10,229 nt of DNA from Candidatus Lindowbacteria bacterium RIFCSPLOWO2_12_FULL_62_27 (GCA_001784175.1 MFPR01000008.1:1-10229), one strand, 5' to 3'. Shown: positions 2,494 through 10,229, counted from the first letter of the stretch. The notes: generated by a model not told the origin, from the letters alone. Program-made: numbers and translations.

Positions 2494-3780
2494 ATGAAGT
2501 ACGCAGCATCTAATTTTTGGCGGGCCGGGGCGGTCCTCCTGCTCCTCGGCGGGGTGGCCGGCGCGGTCCGGGCGGCGGGCACGGACGAGCTCGAGCGGCG
2601 AATCGACGTGCTGAGCCGCGAGATCGAGGAGCTCAAGACGATGGGACGCGGCGCGAGCGGGACCGAGTACGGCGCTGTTCAGAAAACCCGCGTGGGGGGA
2701 TACATGGAACTCCACTACCTCTCCACGCAAAAGGGCGACGGGGAGAATTTCGATTTTCACCGCTACGTCCTCTACGTGGGACACCGGTTCAGCGACTGGA
2801 TCCAGTTTCATTCGGAATTGGAGTTCGAGCACGGGTTCATCAACGACCGGCAGGGCGAGTTCGAGCTCGAACAGGCCTATATCGACTTCAAGCCGAAGGA
2901 GGACTTCGGGATCCGCGCCGGGGTGATCGTCGCGCCGATGGGCGTCATCAACCAGTTCCACGAGCCGCCCACGTTTCACGGCGTGGAGCGGCCGGACGTA
3001 GACAACAAGATCATTCCGTCGACGTGGTTTGCGGCGGGCGCCGGCGTCTACGGGAGCCTCACGCCGAATCTCAAGTATCAGATCTACGGCATCAACGCCC
3101 TCCAGTTCGTCAGCGGCGGCCGGGACGGCACCAAGGCCACCGGGCTGGGCGCGCAACTCGGCACCGACGGCATCCGCAACCTCCGGCAGAAGCAATTCGG
3201 CGGCGAGCAAAACGGGGATGTGCTCGACATCGGCATCGCCGCGCGGCTTGACTACGCCGTCGAACGCTATCCGCTGAATCTCGGCTTCTCTTATTATGGA
3301 GGCGCGGCCGACGACAAAGTCCTGGACACCGCCGGCAATCCTGAACTCACCGGCTTGGTCTTCGACGCGCGCTACAGGCAGGACCGGCTGGATTTCGCCG
3401 GCGAGTGGGCGCAATTCGATGTCGACGACGCCGACAAACTCAAGTCGGCCTACGGCGCCGACCAGGCCGCCCGGCTCGAGGGATGGTACGCCCAGGGCGC
3501 CTACTGGCTCCTGCAGCCGGGCGATCGAAACGGCCTTCTGGCCGACGCGGGACTGGCCGGGTTTGTCCGATACGAAAAGTTCGACACCGCCAAGAAAATG
3601 CCGGCGAATGCGACGGACCGCGCGCAGAACAACCGCGACCGCACGCAGTGGGTGTACGGCATCACCTTCAAGCCGGTGGCCAATCTCGCGGTCAAACTCG
3701 ACTACACGAGCTTCAACGACGCCGACGGGACAACCTTCGACAGCGACAAACTCAACGCCGGCATCGGCTGGCAGTTCTGA
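2494..3780 (+). CDS. Outer-membrane porin, OprO/OprP-like
   Basis: This is a 428-residue outer-membrane beta-barrel protein, probably a diffusion channel for small anions or other solutes. An N-terminal signal peptide (hydrophobic core AGAVLLLLGGVAGAV, likely cleaved after VRA or RAA near residues 27-28) is followed by a short coiled-coil stretch (DELERRIDVLSREIEELKTM, about 31-50), as is common in porins of this type. The barrel follows. The stretch GVIVAPMGVINQFHEPPTF with GVERP, at about 143-167, resembles the conserved early-barrel region of OprO/OprP-like proteins. Alternating amphipathic strands continue to GIGWQF, whose terminal phenylalanine fits the barrel-assembly signal. The start is fixed by GGGAGG (2481-2486), seven bases before the ATG. 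It has no haem motif, unlike the porin at 5883-7130. The substrate cannot be assigned from sequence. Confidence 0.82.
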   Translation: MKYAASNFWRAGAVLLLLGGVAGAVRAAGTDELERRIDVLSREIEELKTMGRGASGTEYGAVQKTRVGGYMELHYLSTQKGDGENFDFHRYVLYVGHRFSDWIQFHSELEFEHGFINDRQGEFELEQAYIDFKPKEDFGIRAGVIVAPMGVINQFHEPPTFHGVERPDVDNKIIPSTWFAAGAGVYGSLTPNLKYQIYGINALQFVSGGRDGTKATGLGAQLGTDGIRNLRQKQFGGEQNGDVLDIGIAARLDYAVERYPLNLGFSYYGGAADDKVLDTAGNPELTGLVFDARYRQDRLDFAGEWAQFDVDDADKLKSAYGADQAARLEGWYAQGAYWLLQPGDRNGLLADAGLAGFVRYEKFDTAKKMPANATDRAQNNRDRTQWVYGITFKPVANLAVKLDYTSFNDADGTTFDSDKLNAGIGWQF

Positions 3781-3828: not shown

Positions 3829-3906
3829 GGGAAGGGGTCAAGCATGAAGTTATTGAAGTTATTATCCATCCATAACTTCAAAAACTTAATGCCTGACCCC
3901 CGTTTC
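3829..3906. repeat. Palindromic element, copy 1 (REP/MITE-like)
   Basis: This 78-base element is repeated at 4404-4485 in the same orientation. Its ends are inverted repeats, GGGGTCAAGCAT and ATGCCTGACCCC, with one mismatch. Inside, AAGTTATTGAAGTTAT pairs with ATAACTTCAAAAACTT (one mismatch) around the loop TATCCATCC, so the whole unit folds into one long hairpin on either strand. No transposase is encoded in it. This is the shape of a non-autonomous element such as a REP/RAYT-mobilised palindrome or a MITE. It truncates the cytochrome gene read leftward from 4295: the cytochrome frame runs into it after residue ~129. Confidence 0.85.
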
Positions 3907-4295
3907 CGATAAACTTTCGCCCCCGGATCCTTTTTGGACCGGATGTCGTGCGATCCGTGGCAGTCGGAGCACCGCGCCGCCTCCGTGTCGCCGCGCTCCC
4001 ATGCTTTTCCGTGGATGCTCGCCGCATAGACGTCCTGCACGTCCGAATGGCACGCGGAACAGTCGACGGCCGGGGGAAGGCCGGGCGATGAGGCGTTTGC
4101 CTCGCCCGAATGGCAGTCGGCGCAGTCGAGGGAGGCGTGAACACTCGGTTTCAGAAGGTCGAGGACGCCCTCCCGATTTTGGTCCGCCCAGTCTGCCGCG
4201 GCCGCCGATGTCATCAGCCCCCAAACGCCGGCGACAAGAGCGATTCCGATTCGATCCTTAATCTTATAACTCTGCGCCGCCTTTGTGGCATTCAT
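3907..4295 (-). pseudogene. Multihaem cytochrome c, N-terminal fragment truncated by the repeat
   Basis: About 130 codons of an exported multihaem cytochrome remain. A signal peptide (IGIALVAGVWGLMTSAAAA, about residues 17-35) is followed by three CxxCH haem sites: CADCH (58-62), CSACH (79-83) and CSDCH (109-113). The last sits in HGKAWERGDTEAARCSDCHG and then SHDI, a pattern of periplasmic multihaem cytochromes, some of which continue into a cytochrome b561-like membrane domain. At 3906 the frame enters palindromic copy 1 and reads element-derived and porin-antisense sequence to a stop at 3702, so the expected further haem sites are missing. The ATG at 4293-4295 overlaps the end of the preceding cytochrome remnant by 32 bases and has AAGGAG ten bases upstream. 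It is probably not functional. The full-length family is uncertain. Confidence 0.8.
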
Positions 4296-4404
4296 GGCAG
4301 TTGGTCTCCTTCCACATGTCCCCCACATCTCCGGGATGGTCATACTCCTCGGCCGACGTGTACCGCTGGGCGAGCGTGCCTTTTTGGTCGACCAGCTTCG
4401 TCAG
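4264..4404 (-). pseudogene. C-terminal remnant of an ImcH/NapC-type cytochrome, paralogue of 7373-8914
   Basis: Translated on the minus strand this reads LTKLVDQKGTLAQRYTSAEE then YDHPGDVGDMWKETNCHECH and KGGAEL before TAA (4264-4266). It matches the last ~45 residues of the intact cytochrome at 7373-8914 (FLKLVGEGG to KGGAELY), including the final CHECH haem site. The rest of the gene is missing: palindromic copy 2 begins at the 5' edge, and the sequence beyond 4485 has no cytochrome coding. Many base differences from the intact copy are synonymous (for example ACC/ACG, TGT/TGC, GAA/GAG), so this is a remnant of an older, once functional paralogue and not a fresh duplication. There is no start codon of its own, so it is not expressed as a protein. 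Confidence 0.85.
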
Positions 4405-4485
4405 GGAAGGGGTCTAGCATGAAGTTATTGAAGTTATTATCCATCCATAACTTCAAAAAACTTATCTATGCCTGACCCCCGTTTC
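4404..4485. repeat. Palindromic element, copy 2 (REP/MITE-like)
   Basis: This second copy is 82 bases long. It differs from copy 1 by one T for A in the left end (GGGGTCTAGCAT) and by four extra bases in the right half (AAACTTATCTATGCC against AACTTAATGCC). It has the same orientation, the same terminal inverted repeats and the same internal hairpin. The shared block runs from GGGAAGGGG to CCCCCGTTTC. It abuts the 5'-truncated cytochrome remnant at 4264-4404, so the two copies bracket the ~500 bases of broken cytochrome genes. Confidence 0.85.
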
Positions 4486-4686: not shown

Positions 4687-5778
4687 TCACTCGAATCGCG
4701 CGCGCCTCGCCTCCTTTGACAGGCGCCCGGTTGCCGGCATCAATCGGTAGAGCGCCGTCCGGCGCTTGCCAGCGTCCACGACCGCAACCACCACCCGCCC
4801 GGCGACCAGTGCCATCGCGGGGATGGATCCCTCCACCGTCGGCGTGCCGCCGATGACTTTCAATATCTCTTGACCGCCCTCCCGGGCCGCCGCCAGAACG
4901 GCAATCCGGCTTCGGTGTTCGCCGGCTTTGAAAAACCCGCCGCCCTCCAGGTCGGGGTCGTTCACGGCGATCACGATCTCGTCGCCTTTCATTCCGTCCA
5001 CGTCCGTTACCAGCGGCGGCACGCGCCAGCTCCCGGTAGCCTTGGCAACGCCTTCCGGAAGATCCAGCGGGGGCCGGCCCACGGCCAGATCAAGACGGAA
5101 CGCCGGCTGCATCTTCGACCAGAGGACAACCGCCTCGTCGGACTCGATTCGAACCAGCTCCTCATCCTCGACTTCGCCGAGGCGCGCAAACTCGAAGAGG
5201 CCCGTGCCGTCCGGCAGCGCCAGTTTGCCGATGGATCGCGGAAGCGCGCCCGGCACGCCCATCTCGACCACCACGGGCCGCGGGCCATCGCCGGCCGCTT
5301 TTTGCGAAAACAGCACCGGACCGTCCCGCCGGTAGAACCGGCCCGCCGTCTGACTCTCCATGCGGGTCTTGCCCTTCACCGAGACATAAAATGTCGACTG
5401 GACCCGCCCGTCGGGATGGACGGACGAAACGAAGAAACGGACCGCGTCTTTCGCGCCCAACCGTTCCTTGTCCGGCGCCTCGATAAAACCGCCCGACACC
5501 GCCCGTCCGGCCGGCATGACCACGTCGATCGTCTTCCAAATCCGCCGGCTTGGCTGCAGAAGAAAAACGGATTTGCCGGCCACCGCCAGACACAGAGGCT
5601 TGCGGTCCGGGCCGGCCACATCAAACGCGACCACTTCGGCCTCGATCGGCGCCTGCCACGGTTCCAATATATACGGCGCCGCTTCGTCGAGATCGGCCCC
5701 GGCCCGCGCGGGCGCGAGGGGCAGGACGGCGCCGAACGCGAGTATGAGGGCGGCTGTGATGAGACTCCGTGCGCTCAT
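4687..5778 (-). CDS. Exported FG-GAP/VCBS-like beta-propeller protein, function unknown
   Basis: This is an uncharacterised secreted protein of 363 residues. The signal peptide is clear: SARSLITAALILAFGAVLPL followed by APARA and a likely cut before GADLDEAAPYI, with no lipobox cysteine. The rest is rich in short beta strands. One stretch, VTDVDGMKGDEIVIAVND, is the calcium-binding-loop signature of FG-GAP/VCBS propeller repeats, and degenerate relatives occur near the N-terminus (VVAFDVAGPDRKPLCLAVAG). It has no CxxCH motif, so it is not itself a cytochrome. It follows the haem-porin gene on the same strand, and a scaffold or assembly role for the surface complex is possible but only inferred. 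Two ATGs compete. The one at 5790 touches its GAGAGG with no spacing; the one at 5778 lies 12 bases beyond it and is preferred. Family assignment is moderate. Confidence 0.68.
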   Translation of the reverse strand: MSARSLITAALILAFGAVLPLAPARAGADLDEAAPYILEPWQAPIEAEVVAFDVAGPDRKPLCLAVAGKSVFLLQPSRRIWKTIDVVMPAGRAVSGGFIEAPDKERLGAKDAVRFFVSSVHPDGRVQSTFYVSVKGKTRMESQTAGRFYRRDGPVLFSQKAAGDGPRPVVVEMGVPGALPRSIGKLALPDGTGLFEFARLGEVEDEELVRIESDEAVVLWSKMQPAFRLDLAVGRPPLDLPEGVAKATGSWRVPPLVTDVDGMKGDEIVIAVNDPDLEGGGFFKAGEHRSRIAVLAAAREGGQEILKVIGGTPTVEGSIPAMALVAGRVVVAVVDAGKRRTALYRLMPATGRLSKEARRARFE

Positions 5779-5814
5779 GACGATTGGCATCCTCTCTTCA
5801 TTCGTAAACGGCGC

Positions 5815-5870
5815 CCCCCGCTCTCCTCCATGGAGAGCGGGGGACAGGGAGTATAAATTGAGACGCTCAA
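5815..5870 (-). terminator. Tandem hairpins between the haem-porin and FG-GAP genes
   Basis: Reading the minus strand from the haem-porin stop, a small hairpin comes first: TTGAG-CGT-CTCAA at 5870-5858, followed by TTTATAC. A strong one follows with a perfect 12-base stem, CCCCCGCTCTCC (5815-5826) and GGAGAGCGGGGG (5832-5843), and a 5-base loop. Neither has a long T-run. They may terminate part of the transcript, or protect the 3' end of the porin message so that the FG-GAP gene is made at a lower level. Confidence 0.5.
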
Positions 5871-5882
5871 ATCATCAAATGC

Positions 5883-7130
5883 TCACCACAGGTACTGCAG
5901 TTCCACCACGGTGGCGTTCTGGTCCACCACCGTCGACGACGTCTGGTCCCTCTTGCCGGTCCACTCGATGACCACATGGCCGTACTCGAACGGCTCGATC
6001 TGAAGTCCCGCGACGTTCTGCCGGACGATGTCCGACGCCCGGTTGTCCTTGTTGTAGTCGATGAACTCGTGCCGAACGTACGCGGACAACGGCCAGGACA
6101 TCTTGGCGTACTTCTCAAGATCGTAGGCCTCAATCTGCCCATAATACAACTTGAGCTTGGGTTTCGTGCCGCCGTCCAAAAACCGCCGTTCGCCCCAGGC
6201 CCAAAATCCTGTCAGCTTGTAGTTGTCCAGGATGTAGTTGCCCATCACGGCGTGCCGCTTGAACTTGCTTGGAACCGCCCCCGCGGTGCCCGCCCATGAA
6301 GGCTTGGACACATTCCCGTCGTAGAAGTAGTACCCGACCATCGAACCGTTGTCGTCGTAGGTGTAATCGGCGGTGGCGTACCAGTCCCGATGGTTGTCCG
6401 TGTCGGTCGAGTTAAACACGCTGGCCTTGCCTTTGCCGCCGTTGACCAGCCCCGCGGCGAAAAAGACGTCGTCATGCTTGCGGGAATATTCGATGCCGTA
6501 GTCCCGGCTGAAAAAGGCGTAACCGGCCTGGCGGTTGGCCGTGGCCGTGTCCTCGGTTGTGAGGACCAGCGGTCGCGCGTAACTCAGGCGGGAGCCGCCG
6601 CCGAACCGGTGGATCAGCGACGGCATGATCTGCCCGACCCGGACCGAATTGTACTGCGGCCCGTCGGAGGACGTCCACTGGAGAAAGCCCTCGGCCAGTT
6701 TCGTCCGACCGCCGTCGTCGCTTTCCGGCTGCGTATTGGTCGCAGGCTTGCCTGCGTTCTCATGCAGGTAGATTTCCGTGAAATACGAGAATTGCTCCGT
6801 CAGCGCGCCGCCGGTGTAGATGGCGAAGGCGTGATGCTCGAAGGTAGACCGTGGATCGCTTGTCTCAGAGTACTTGACACGGAATTTCGTGCTGAAACTC
6901 AAATGCTCATTCACGTTCGGCCCGGCCTTCTCCTGCTCATACCGGTGGCCTCGCCGCAGGAATTCCTGACCGTCCTTGTTCAAATCCCACTGCCCCCGGT
7001 GACACGCGCTGCAGGACACGCTGTACTTGCGCCCCCACGCCGCAATCGCGTCCGCCGGCTGGGCTTGAGCCAGGATAAACCCCACGAGAAGCGTCAGGCT
7101 TAAGACGCCGTAGAAAAATTTTGACTTCAT
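5883..7130 (-). CDS. Monohaem cytochrome-porin fusion, Cyc2-like outer-membrane protein
   Basis: This 415-residue protein joins one c-type haem site to an outer-membrane beta barrel. A signal peptide (FFYGVLSLTLLVGFILAQA, cut near AQPADA) is followed at once by AWGRKYSVSCSACHRG with the haem motif CSACH at residues 40-44, then LNKDGQEFLRRGHR. This matches the layout of Cyc2, the Fe(II)-oxidising fused cytochrome-porin, in which a short haem plug domain (R..G..C..CH....LN.FG..F...GY pattern) precedes a ~16-strand barrel. The remainder is aromatic-rich amphipathic beta strands ending in VVELQYLW, a terminal aromatic that fits barrel assembly. The protein would carry electrons across the outer membrane. 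The start is the ATG at 7128-7130 with AAAGGGGG eight bases upstream; a TTG two codons earlier is too close to it. Sequence similarity to true Cyc2 could not be measured, so iron oxidase is a hypothesis. It lies downstream of the cytochrome/NrfD genes on the same strand. Confidence 0.78.
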   Translation of the reverse strand: MKSKFFYGVLSLTLLVGFILAQAQPADAIAAWGRKYSVSCSACHRGQWDLNKDGQEFLRRGHRYEQEKAGPNVNEHLSFSTKFRVKYSETSDPRSTFEHHAFAIYTGGALTEQFSYFTEIYLHENAGKPATNTQPESDDGGRTKLAEGFLQWTSSDGPQYNSVRVGQIMPSLIHRFGGGSRLSYARPLVLTTEDTATANRQAGYAFFSRDYGIEYSRKHDDVFFAAGLVNGGKGKASVFNSTDTDNHRDWYATADYTYDDNGSMVGYYFYDGNVSKPSWAGTAGAVPSKFKRHAVMGNYILDNYKLTGFWAWGERRFLDGGTKPKLKLYYGQIEAYDLEKYAKMSWPLSAYVRHEFIDYNKDNRASDIVRQNVAGLQIEPFEYGHVVIEWTGKRDQTSSTVVDQNATVVELQYLW

Positions 7131-7372
7131 CTTCAAAACCCCCTTTGCTGTTGAGTTCGTAGTTCACTTCGTAGTTCAACCGTTTGTAAAACGGATTAGA
7201 TCATATATGCAAATGACATTCCAGAGAGAATTACTGGTAGAAAAACTGGTTAACCGATTGTAAATACTAGTGTAGTTAAGATGCCCGATTAAGGCCGGTT
7301 TCGGTCTGTTTTGTAGCCGATACTTACATTTGTCGTATATCATTACAGCAACAGGACACTGGCGGGCGCTTG
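7131..7372 (-). promoter_or_regulatory. AT-rich leader of the haem-porin gene with direct and inverted repeats
   Basis: This non-coding stretch between the cytochrome and haem-porin genes is clearly more AT-rich than its neighbours. It holds two tandem copies of TTCGTAGTTCA with a 12-base period (7156-7166 and 7168-7178), a perfect CCGTTT-GTA-AAACGG dyad next to them (7180-7194), and a GGTTAACC palindrome (7248-7255). On the minus strand a TATGAT at 7206-7201 could be a -10 box, but no good -35 box stands at the right distance. TTAATC and TAGTAT with a 17-base spacer, further upstream, form another weak candidate. The haem-porin therefore probably has its own regulated promoter or leader control. 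No small gene with a ribosome site was seen. Confidence 0.5.
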
Positions 7373-8914
7373 TCAATACAGTTCCGCGCCGCCTTTGTGG
7401 CATTCATGACAGTTGGTTTCCTTCCACATGTCCCCGACATCGCCCGGGTGGTCGTACTCATCTGCCGAGGTGTAGCGCTGTGCAACGGCAACGCCGCCTT
7501 CGCCGACGAGTTTCAGAAACGAGTGGCAGGTGTTGCAGTCCCGCGTCATTTTCTTTCCGTGGTTGCCGGTGGATACAAGATCATCGTTGTGGCAGCGGAA
7601 ACATCCCGGGGAATTCAGGTGGCCGATATGGTCCGGATACGATTTCCAGGACGCGCGCATTTCCGGGAACTGGCTCTTCTTGTACAACTCCTGCACGGCC
7701 AGGATGGCGGCCGTGACCCGTTTCGGATCGCCCCTGGCCAGGTCCGGATACGACTCGGCATAGAAATCGCGCAGGTGGGCCGCGATGCCTGACATCGCCT
7801 GCGGCGCGGCCGCATACTCCCGATCCAGCGACTTCACCGCCTCGCGCTTGATGTAGGGCAGGCCGCGGTCGAGGGCGCCGGCTTCGAGCGCGTCGTTCAC
7901 GGCGGCTTGCGGCGAGGCGAACTTGTGCGCCGGCCGGTTGTGGCAGTCCATGCAGTCCATGCGGCGAACGCGCGCGAGGGCGAGGTCGGAGTCGGACGGC
8001 GGCGCGGAGGCGGACCGAAATTCCTTGACCTCGCCCGTGACCCGGTCCGTCGACCGCACCCAGACGATCTCCTCCCGGGACTCGTCCTTCGGAATGTACT
8101 CGATCAGATGATTGATGTTCATGTGAAGGTGGATGCCGGTCTGGCTCTTGCCGACAATGCCGCCGCCGACGTTGACGATCACGCGGGTCGGCGCCGGCGT
8201 ATTTTTCTCGTCGGATTTGAAATGCGGGTAGGTCCGCTCCTTGGGCGAGTAGAACTGCTGGGGCCAGTGGCACTGCTCGCAGGTTTCCTGCGCGGGCCGG
8301 AGGTTCTTGATGGGCGTCGGGATGGGTCTGGGATATTTGCCCATGAGCACGGCGTAGACCTGGTAGGACCCGGAAATTTTGGATTTGGCGAACCATCCGG
8401 CGCCCGATCCGATGTGGCAGGAAGCGCATTTGACGCGCGCGTGCGCCGAAGTCTGATAGACGGTGAATTCCGGCTTCATGACCTGATGACAGACTTCCCC
8501 GCAGAAGGAAACCGACTCGGTGTAGTGATAGGTGTGGTAGAGGCCGGCGCTGGACAGCACCAGAAAAATGACGATGCCGGCCAGAAAGGCCATCGTGGTG
8601 TTGCGGTGGACGGGATTGGAGAAATCGATGCGGAGCGACTTGAGAACGGTCGCGTCAGGATTTCGGAGGATCTGCCGCCGCGTCCACCATGCCCCGGCCG
8701 GAATCAGGATGACGCCGAAGACGAGGACGGGAGGCAGGATCATCCACATGATCATCCCGAAATAGGGGGAATCGATCTTCAGGGCATGGTCGGTCACCCA
8801 GAGAACCGCCTCCACGAGGAGAACCAGAAAGACGATCAGAATCCCCGCCATCGTGATGGGATTGTAGAAATATTCCGAGTACTTGTGGCCGGCCGCCGGC
8901 TGCTCCCCGCTCAT
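7373..8914 (-). CDS. NapC/NirT-type inner-membrane multihaem cytochrome c, ImcH-like
   Basis: This is a 513-residue membrane-anchored quinol-linked cytochrome. Three hydrophobic helices lie at about residues 21-40, 50-76 and 107-126. A periplasmic haem domain follows: CGEVCH (138-143, a C-x3-CH variant), CASCH (163-167), CEQCH (212-216), CMDCH (321-325), CFRCH (438-442), CNTCH (460-464) and CHECH (502-506), so six canonical sites and one variant. The stretch VMKPEFTVYQTSAHARVKC is typical of the NapC/NirT group. Three helices with seven haem sites is also the layout of Geobacter ImcH, an inner-membrane cytochrome used in metal reduction. The frame is open to 9112, but the start is the ATG at 8912-8914: it overlaps the nrfD stop as ATGA and has GGGGAGG seven bases upstream. 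The protein should pass electrons between quinone/NrfD and periplasmic carriers. A C-terminal paralogue fragment lies at 4264-4404. Confidence 0.9.
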   Translation of the reverse strand: MSGEQPAAGHKYSEYFYNPITMAGILIVFLVLLVEAVLWVTDHALKIDSPYFGMIMWMILPPVLVFGVILIPAGAWWTRRQILRNPDATVLKSLRIDFSNPVHRNTTMAFLAGIVIFLVLSSAGLYHTYHYTESVSFCGEVCHQVMKPEFTVYQTSAHARVKCASCHIGSGAGWFAKSKISGSYQVYAVLMGKYPRPIPTPIKNLRPAQETCEQCHWPQQFYSPKERTYPHFKSDEKNTPAPTRVIVNVGGGIVGKSQTGIHLHMNINHLIEYIPKDESREEIVWVRSTDRVTGEVKEFRSASAPPSDSDLALARVRRMDCMDCHNRPAHKFASPQAAVNDALEAGALDRGLPYIKREAVKSLDREYAAAPQAMSGIAAHLRDFYAESYPDLARGDPKRVTAAILAVQELYKKSQFPEMRASWKSYPDHIGHLNSPGCFRCHNDDLVSTGNHGKKMTRDCNTCHSFLKLVGEGGVAVAQRYTSADEYDHPGDVGDMWKETNCHECHKGGAELY

Positions 8915-10134
8915 AACCCCGCCTCCCCGCTGTCTGGTCCCTCCTTCTGCCATGGCGGGAACAGTTTGACAAGAACCGCGAGAATCACAAACGGAAGCAC
9001 CATGATGATCGCGGCGCTCAAGAGTCCCTCGCGGCCGGCGATGCCCAGTTTGTAGGTGGTCAGTCCCCGGAAACTTTTCGAGACGAACTGGCCGCCGATC
9101 ACGACGTTCCACCGCATCGCAAGCACCCCCAGCAAAATCAGGAGGCTGCTGATGGCATAGACCGCCTTTCTCACCCGCTCGTGCACGCGGGCGATCCGGG
9201 CGAATCCCAAAAGCAGCATGGGCACGATCGATCCCAGAAAAACCTGCACGACGAGCATGCTGAGATACAGCATGCCTTCTAGCATCACCACCGTGATGTC
9301 GTAGTGCTCCTCGGCCTCGTAGGATTTCTGGATCATCTCAAGCGCTTCGAGGCTGAAGGAGACGACGAGGGCGACGAGGAGGTACCGGGCGATGGTGTCG
9401 ACGCAGTCCATCCGTTTTCCCACGACCTGCTCGCCGCGCAGCCAGCATGAGAACATGTAGATCACCATGACGGCGGCGATGCCGGACACCATCGCTGAAA
9501 AAAGAAAGATGATCGGCATGAGCGCGGTCGACCACCAGGGGATGGCCTTGATGGAGCCGAAGATGAACCCGACGTATCCGTGCAGGAGGACGGCCGACGG
9601 GATGCCGACGACGGTGATGGCGCGGCCGATTTTGTCGTCGAGTTCGAGGGCCCGGGGCGAGAGGTTGTCGACACCGAGCGTCAGGATTTTGTAAAACCAG
9701 CGAAGCGGCGCGGGTTTGGTTTTCGACAGGGTCACGATGTCCTTGCGATAGTCAAACCAAAGTTCCAGCAAAAGGACGATGGTGAGATACCAGAGATAGA
9801 CGAACCCGAACATGGCCATGGCCGAGGTGGGATTCGGCGTGACCAGGATTTCGTAGGCCCGTTCCGGCCGGCCCAGGTGCGCGTTGAGCGGCATGGGCGC
9901 GACGAGCAGAAACGCCAGCGAGGTCAGGAGCGACAGCCGGTAGGCGGGCGCCATCGCCCGCACGTTGAAGACGCGCACGAGGGACGCCAGAATGAACGCG
10001 CCGGCCACGAGGCCCGTGATGTACGGATAGAGGACGATCAGGACGCTCCACTGAAGCTCCACTTCGTTCGGATAAATAAACCCGGACACCCGCTCGAGCG
10101 CCTCGTAGAATTCCTCGATCAGATGCGGATCCAT
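8911..10134 (-). CDS. nrfD: NrfD-like quinone-interacting membrane subunit
   Basis: This 407-residue polytopic protein belongs to the NrfD/PsrC family, which exchanges electrons between the membrane quinone pool and an iron-sulfur partner. About nine hydrophobic segments are seen (near 30-52, 65-82, 105-125, 172-192, 203-228, 248-264, 281-310, 324-342 and 369-391). Family hallmarks are PMPLNAHLGRPERAY (80-94), with its Arg-Pro-Glu, and MRWNVVIGGQFVSKSFRG (340-357) in the C-terminal bundle. The start ATG at 10132-10134 lies one base after the stop of the iron-sulfur subunit gene, with AAGGAGG nine bases upstream, and the 3' end overlaps the cytochrome start as ATGA. Tight coupling to both neighbours indicates one complex. 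The subtype (Nrf, Dsr/Hme, Qrc or Act-like) cannot be settled. Linkage to an ImcH-like cytochrome argues for a quinone-periplasm electron shuttle and against nitrite reduction, so the symbol denotes the family only. Confidence 0.92.
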   Translation of the reverse strand: MDPHLIEEFYEALERVSGFIYPNEVELQWSVLIVLYPYITGLVAGAFILASLVRVFNVRAMAPAYRLSLLTSLAFLLVAPMPLNAHLGRPERAYEILVTPNPTSAMAMFGFVYLWYLTIVLLLELWFDYRKDIVTLSKTKPAPLRWFYKILTLGVDNLSPRALELDDKIGRAITVVGIPSAVLLHGYVGFIFGSIKAIPWWSTALMPIIFLFSAMVSGIAAVMVIYMFSCWLRGEQVVGKRMDCVDTIARYLLVALVVSFSLEALEMIQKSYEAEEHYDITVVMLEGMLYLSMLVVQVFLGSIVPMLLLGFARIARVHERVRKAVYAISSLLILLGVLAMRWNVVIGGQFVSKSFRGLTTYKLGIAGREGLLSAAIIMVLPFVILAVLVKLFPPWQKEGPDSGEAGL

Positions 10135-10135
10135 T

Positions 10136-10228
10136 TCATCTCACCTCCTTGTCCAGACCCTTGTAGACCAGTTTGGGCTGGGTGCCCAGATGAGGTTTCA
10201 GGACGTTGACGCGGTTTTCCTGCGAGAA
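10136..10228 (-). CDS. C-terminus of an NrfC/HybA-like 4Fe-4S electron-transfer subunit (partial)
   Basis: Only the last 30 codons are in the window: FSQENRVNVLKPHLGTQPKL then VYKGLDKEVR before TGA. The LKPHLGTQPKL-Y-GLDKEV ending is typical of the ferredoxin-like subunits with four [4Fe-4S] clusters that partner NrfD proteins, where VYYIGLD-like sequence closes the chain. No cysteines fall in this fragment, so the cluster ligands lie outside the window. It ends one base before the nrfD start and holds its ribosome site. Its position upstream of nrfD strongly supports the call. Confidence 0.7.
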   Translation of the reverse strand, partial: FSQENRVNVLKPHLGTQPKLVYKGLDKEVR

Positions 10229-10229
10229 T

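Follow-up and report, generated by a model that had tools for sequence, protein, structure and literature searches.

An FeS-NrfD-ImcH quinone module beside a Cyc2-like monohaem porin in a Candidatus Lindowbacteria genome, and comparable porin-cytochrome clusters in at least three phyla

When the genes of a quinone-interacting module and of a one-haem porin lie next to each other, do they encode a single electron route from the quinone pool to the cell surface? This question is raised by contig C8 (MFPR01000008.1) of Candidatus Lindowbacteria bacterium RIFCSPLOWO2_12_FULL_62_27, an uncultured bacterium of groundwater type with a draft genome of 4.39 Mb in 44 contigs, 94% complete; the complete contig, 10,229 nucleotides (nt) long, was analysed and is called the window here. 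Its minus strand carries, in order, the C-terminus of an iron-sulfur (FeS) subunit, an NrfD-type membrane subunit, an ImcH-like heptahaem cytochrome, a 236-nt gap, a monohaem porin-like protein and an exported protein, and haem-type DNA patterns are far denser in the window than expected (11 observed versus 0.45 expected, with 0 shuffles reaching 11). A preliminary description of the window had read these genes as one conserved route; the observation itself is confirmed, since every gene it named lies on the minus strand with the coordinates given below, and the ImcH/NapC-type quinone module and the one-haem porin are neighbours on one strand. On balance, we read them as two separate electron-transfer units lying side by side, with no conserved operon and with a transcription boundary of their own, joined only in this genome. 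The earlier interpretation is partly supported: conservation fails within the family, while comparable clusters elsewhere back the idea, and the cross-phylum tandem formed by those clusters is a more valuable lead than the window locus itself. The closest named record to the window is an unclassified groundwater metagenome-assembled genome (MAG), JACQOF010000066.1.

The module and the porin

The FeS subunit, of the 4Fe-4S NrfC/TtrB-like kind, enters the window with its C-terminal end (10136-10229, minus strand; stop codon at 10138-10136), the gene being truncated at the contig end and continuing past it. No cluster motif is visible within these last ~30 residues, and the subunit was identified because its tail, QENRVNVLKPHLGTQPKLVYKGLDKEVR, is near-identical to that of the complete 4Fe-4S subunit at locus L031 of a relative, G001, which matches TtrB, DsrO and NrfC models with every score under the curated cut-off. 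The adjacent gene (8911-10134, minus strand) encodes an NrfD-type integral membrane quinone-interacting subunit that belongs to the Pfam NrfD family (135 bits versus a gathering score of 25.8; E 6e-39), with copies on contig C5 of the same genome and in the relatives G001 and G002 that are 81-96% identical to it. NrfCD, TtrBC and Hmc-type modules likewise combine a 4Fe-4S subunit with an NrfD membrane subunit, but the NCBIfam equivalog scores all lie far under cut-off, and the partner in the window is an ImcH homologue.

This partner (7373-8914, minus strand) is an ImcH-like heptahaem inner-membrane cytochrome c of 513 amino acids (aa) with three transmembrane (TM) helices, matching Pfam NapC/NirT at E 7e-12. 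Its N-terminal hydropathy peaks fall at residues 20-38, 53-71 and 102-120; a CX3CH site at 138 follows directly after these helices, and CX2CH sites lie at 163, 212, 321, 438, 460 and 502, so that the ImcH/NapC-like cytochrome with seven haem sites described earlier is indeed encoded. ImcH is characterised by 495-519 aa in the Geobacter group, an atypical CX3CH and five to nine CX2CH motifs (PMC6295460), and the window protein agrees in its length, its three N-terminal TM helices, the CX3CH beside the TM domain and the number of CX2CH motifs. Geobacter sulfurreducens ImcH in particular resembles it in having ~500 aa, three N-terminal TM helices, a CX3CH, six CX2CH motifs and a NapC/NirT-type N-terminal region (PMC6295460). 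Unlike the ImcH family, the window copy is translationally coupled to FeS-NrfD and has a one-haem porin downstream; the coupling, claimed at the outset, is borne out by the single nucleotide between the FeS stop and the NrfD start and by the overlap of the NrfD stop with the cytochrome start (ATGA). ImcH-like relatives in G001 and G002 are 66-71% identical to the window copy, 7 of 40 ImcH loci have FeS and NrfD genes no further than 5 kb from ImcH, a sequence search of the PDB with the ImcH profile returned NrfH as its sole match, and a search of plasmids gave one weak NapC/NirT match to ImcH.

Downstream, a gene at 5883-7130 on the minus strand encodes a Cyc2-like fused monohaem cytochrome-porin of ~415 aa with a signal peptide, a CSACH haem site and a C-terminal Trp; the ATG at 7130 is a better-placed start than the listed TTG at 7136, from which its one CXXCH is counted at residue 42. 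The N-terminus, AIAAWGRKYSVSCSACHRGQWDL, is Cyc2-like and departs from the published consensus, which comprises the motifs AXPXFAR[QK][TY] and PXL (PMC8406198): the window has AIAAWGRKY for the first (P to A, F to W, A to G) and, 4 aa after the CXXCH in CSACHRGQWDL, W for the P of the second with the L retained. A strict Cyc2 was rejected on these mismatches. The general features are present, namely a single CXXCH, a signal peptide with its hydrophobic N-terminus and a length above the 365 aa expected as a minimum, and Cyc2 itself shares the signal peptide, the single N-terminal CXXCH, a porin-like remainder of 400-500 residues and an aromatic last residue (PMC8406198); in contrast to Cyc2, besides the consensus, the window neighbourhood is a quinone module, whereas that of Cyc2 consists of oxidase genes. 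The porin is a member of the broad superfamily of Cyc2-like fused cytochrome-porins. It is unmatched in Pfam, NCBIfam and PHROGs, a PDB sequence search with the porin profile returned nothing, and an AlphaFold2 model built from a two-sequence alignment reached a pLDDT of 30, unusable for comparison with the 16-strand beta barrel of Cyc2; a barrel is suggested by the C-terminal Trp and by homology to other monohaem porins. Of the earlier account of the porin, the single haem site stands, and its linkage with the module into one conserved locus is not borne out.

The exported protein that follows (4687-5790, minus strand) has a signal peptide, in line with the export noted earlier; the propeller suggested for it is unconfirmed, with no match in Pfam and a pLDDT of 34 from a two-sequence AlphaFold2 alignment, and the protein is likewise unmatched in NCBIfam and PHROGs. 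Between module and porin lies an AT-rich intergenic gap of 236 nt (7137-7372; GC content 0.415 versus 0.61 in the window), which is likely to be a transcription boundary between the two. Contrary to the link drawn earlier, the porin is not coupled to the module.

Gene order in the family and traces of rearrangement

The searched genome collection contained two family relatives, G001 and G002. In G001 the module runs on into a protein that combines nine or more haems with a cytochrome b561-like portion, and no porin is present there. Two contigs of G001 share a 31-nt overlap within a porin gene and join into the order histidine kinase, NtrC-type regulator, porin, tetrahaem cytochrome and exported protein, with no FeS-NrfD-ImcH gene at this porin locus. 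The G002 porin (L015), 69% identical to that of the window, is followed by a tetrahaem c554-like cytochrome, an exported protein and citrate synthase; upstream of it, no ImcH 3' end was found in the ~500 nt before the contig end, and one ImcH 3' end in this genome is followed by unrelated genes. The tetrahaem cytochrome (L015:1833-2474 and L032:953-1666) has an N-terminal membrane anchor and sits between the porin and the exported protein, whose orthologues at L015 and L032 are 48% and 45% identical to the window protein; in the window it is absent, the two genes being separated by the gap at 5791-5882. The conserved pair is porin and exported protein; ImcH and porin are not a conserved pair in the family, and a conserved ImcH-porin order was rejected on G001.

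A second FeS-NrfD-ImcH copy ends contig C5 of the same genome (L006:3866-17193), with an NrfD 96% and an ImcH 67% identical to those of the window. There is no porin beside it; after the module come a PIN gene and a gene for another exported protein, and beyond these lies a molybdoenzyme operon with a TtrA/Dms-like enzyme (best model TtrA, far under cut-off), an FeS subunit, a TorD-type chaperone and Rieske/cytochrome b genes. C5 and C8 both stop inside the FeS gene with almost identical sequence there; the assembly therefore broke at a duplicated segment. Wherever the proposal of one conserved single-locus route could be checked (G001, G002 as far as its contig reaches, and this second copy), it fails. 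Because of the gap, the porin-less second copy and the arrangements in the sister genera, module and porin look like two units joined in this lineage, and their adjacency is peculiar to this genome.

A degraded remnant lies at 3900-4410 on the minus strand, where the 3' end of an additional ImcH paralogue leads into the N-terminal region of a multihaem subunit. It shows 87% DNA identity over 101 nt to the 3' end of the window ImcH, and a blastp match (36%, E 3e-13) to the multihaem/b-type subunit downstream of ImcH in L031. Since this remnant agrees with the arrangement in G001, the original order in the family was probably FeS-NrfD-ImcH-multihaem/b, the window locus having been rearranged since. 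Two copies of a palindromic element with GGGGTC...GACCCC ends flank the remnant on both sides, the first of 67 bp (3834-3900; 29-nt arms, 90% complementary) and the second at 4404-4475 (56 nt aligned at 98% identity; its 3' limit is approximate), and they resemble miniature inverted-repeat transposable elements or repetitive extragenic palindromes.

A porin, cytochrome c and quinol cytochrome tandem in at least three phyla

Among 386 genomes spread over the domain, an ImcH-like match was found in 42 and a monohaem-porin match in 61; together with further searches for the window porin subfamily in two phyla, this gave 74 porin neighbourhoods. Six of the 74 have a quinol-type cytochrome within 4 kb of the porin, always downstream on the same strand and with a small monohaem cytochrome c between (L173:8962-11341, L182:8798-11095, L187:167-2632, L233:8399-10944, L102:7634-10874 and L143:7263-10497). 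The cytochrome c is of the cbb3/class I kind and is followed by an ImcH-like heptahaem protein in G357 and G396, whereas in G197, G064, G044 and G837 a cytochrome c precedes a NapC/NirT-like tetrahaem protein (Pfam E 2e-7 to 1e-10). These genomes come from five families, spread over at least three phyla (G357/G396, G064 and G837 lying in phyla that were searched separately). In leave-one-out searches, each of the four tetrahaem proteins is recovered by a model of the others (E 2e-37 or better); this shows that they form one family, and no more, so that the cytochrome portion of the tandem counts as a single cassette. NapC-type genes near versus far from porins number 6 versus 0, a comparison that is partly circular as the model was built from four of these matches; open reading frames (ORFs) with three or more haems are 3-fold more frequent near monohaem porins, with 22 within 4 kb versus 7 further out over similar lengths.

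The tree of 62 monohaem porins groups the window porin with L015 (support 100) and then with L150 and L199 (four-row set, 97). Five of the six tandem porins fall within a single seven-row clade (support 100), and the sixth, from G837, belongs to the window's own subfamily (L150, L199 and L224-L239). No quinol cytochrome lies near L150 and L199, two of the nearest kin of the window porin, and only one of 16 further subfamily loci has one. A plasmid search for the clustered porin gave no match. We tentatively propose an undescribed minimal conduit from the quinone pool to the surface, in which a Cyc2-like monohaem porin, a small cytochrome c with one haem and a quinol cytochrome, either NapC-like with four haems or ImcH-like with seven, may act together as one conserved cluster with 6-9 haems in total in at least three phyla and two porin subclades including that of the window, the window locus being a looser, ImcH/NrfD-based relative. 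A literature search returned no account of this tandem, with incomplete coverage that leaves such absence unproven. The general idea that monohaem porins can be wired to the quinone pool, also part of the preliminary description, gains independent support from the six genomes.

Among described systems, the tandem resembles MtoAB-MtoD-CymA/ImoA of Sideroxydans (PMC12442390), with the Cyc2-like porin in place of MtoAB. That system is comparable in principle to the window, combining an outer-membrane conduit, a periplasmic monohaem carrier and a NapC-type quinone cytochrome in one locus, but its 26-strand porin holds an inserted decahaem cytochrome, whereas the window porin has one fused haem and the carrier gene is missing. 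The window has no decahaem gene and no large haem-free porin with a decahaem insert of the Mto/Mtr kind. In porin-cytochrome clusters of karst MAGs (PMC13264449), too, an outer-membrane porin has an ImcH or NapC of the inner membrane close by, but these porins have 25-36 strands and are partnered by decahaem cytochromes. Because MtoAB, MtoD and CymA/ImoA already form one (PMC12442390), a single locus linking surface and quinone pool is not in itself a novelty, and the contrast with known conduits drawn in the earlier description needs correcting accordingly.

Little is known, beyond the Acidithiobacillus rus operon, of how Cyc2-like monohaem porins are linked to the inner membrane, and the outer partners of ImcH are not fixed; the clusters reduce this to a compact three-gene hypothesis that is open to test. 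They suggest a connection with the quinone pool, possibly an outward one, for part of the Cyc2-like superfamily, so that a Cyc2-like gene alone should not be taken as a marker of iron oxidation. That a similar, tidier gene set occurs in unrelated bacteria suggests a simple wiring from quinone pool to surface.

Two arrangements touch the monohaem porins in other ways. In a second porin clade (L162, L164, L169, L171, L174 and L178), a cytochrome of 446-484 aa with four or five CXXCH motifs is regularly encoded directly upstream of the porin, a recurrent partner of another kind. The porins at L036, L037, L038 and L199 adjoin a histidine kinase and a sigma-54/NtrC-type response regulator, which suggests inducible control.

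Electron flow, competing readings and the remaining genes

If module and porin are two units, unit 1, the translationally coupled FeS-NrfD-ImcH operon with at least two copies in this genome, would oxidise menaquinol at the inner membrane by way of NrfD/FeS and/or the NapC-like part of ImcH. Electrons would be loaded onto the heptahaem periplasmic domain and then passed to a soluble or anchored periplasmic cytochrome and on to the porin haem. Unit 2, porin and exported protein, would hold one haem in an outer-membrane barrel in the fashion of Cyc2 and exchange electrons with small or dissolved extracellular partners. The units probably share a periplasmic carrier encoded outside the window, for which the tetrahaem c554-like cytochrome of the sister genomes is a possible candidate. 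We tentatively favour outward flow because ImcH homologues have been reported only from Fe(III) reducers (PMC6295460), although Cyc2 itself works inward.

Several observations weigh against two separate units. Module and porin share a strand with no gene between them, and a scan of the gap at 7137-7372 found no sigma-70-type promoter match and no convincing terminator, the missing promoter arguing against a boundary. With only two family relatives in the collection, the case for non-conservation depends chiefly on G001, where the porin is of another subclade (~25% identity), and the upstream side of G002 is only partly resolved as its contig ends there. Porin and quinol cytochrome are genuinely clustered in other genomes, so the adjacency may have a functional reason.

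The next best reading, somewhat unlikely in our view, is pure juxtaposition, in which the module feeds another partner (the multihaem/b-type subunit or the molybdoenzyme), the porin uses cytochromes encoded elsewhere and their adjacency is a scar of rearrangement. The remnant of an ImcH end and multihaem subunit between two palindromic elements shows a rearranged locus, and the contig ends inside the duplicated FeS-NrfD segment; however, the module is unlikely to have landed by chance beside a porin of its own physiological class, and elsewhere the two classes cluster. A dedicated conduit, with the module recruited to the porin in this lineage, co-expressed with it and ImcH passing electrons on directly or via a soluble cytochrome, we consider improbable. 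It would account for the shared strand and order and finds parallels in the porin-cytochrome c-NapC/ImcH clusters of six genomes and five families. A published survey, whose account does not cover Cyc2-like porins, found no mtrAB/mtoAB adjoining imcH (PMC6295460), and with ImcH never seen beside mtrAB-type porins, a Cyc2-like porin would fill that place. Against such a conduit stand the missing carrier gene, the reversed gene order relative to the other clusters, the 236-nt AT-rich gap and the lack of conservation in G001.

We hold an inward route to be doubtful to a similar degree: here the porin would act like Cyc2 in oxidising dissolved Fe(II) or some other donor, and ImcH/NrfD would reduce the quinone pool. 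Cyc2 homologues do oxidise Fe(II) (PMC8406198), and CymA- and CbcL-type proteins are found working in both directions (PMC6295460), but ImcH homologues occur only in Fe(III) reducers, where they are read as quinol oxidases (PMC6295460), and the porin misses the strict Cyc2 motif. Least probable is a role as an ordinary substrate channel whose haem is structural or sensory and takes no part in respiration. The very divergent barrel sequence and the several monohaem porins that are solitary or beside two-component regulators would suit this reading, but the 3-fold excess of ORFs for proteins with at least three haems in the 4 kb around such porins (22 versus 7) and the Cyc2 precedent speak against it.

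The remaining genes of the window lie at its other end. Positions 2-805 hold an open frame, cut at the contig end, that by eye resembles the C-terminus of an alpha-glucan phosphorylase (no match in Pfam), and overlapping genes for an AbiEii-type nucleotidyltransferase and a DUF6922 protein at 822-1833 on the minus strand form a toxin-antitoxin-like pair. A second porin-like outer-membrane protein, haem-free and with a signal peptide, is encoded at 2494-3780 on the plus strand, oriented toward the remnant.

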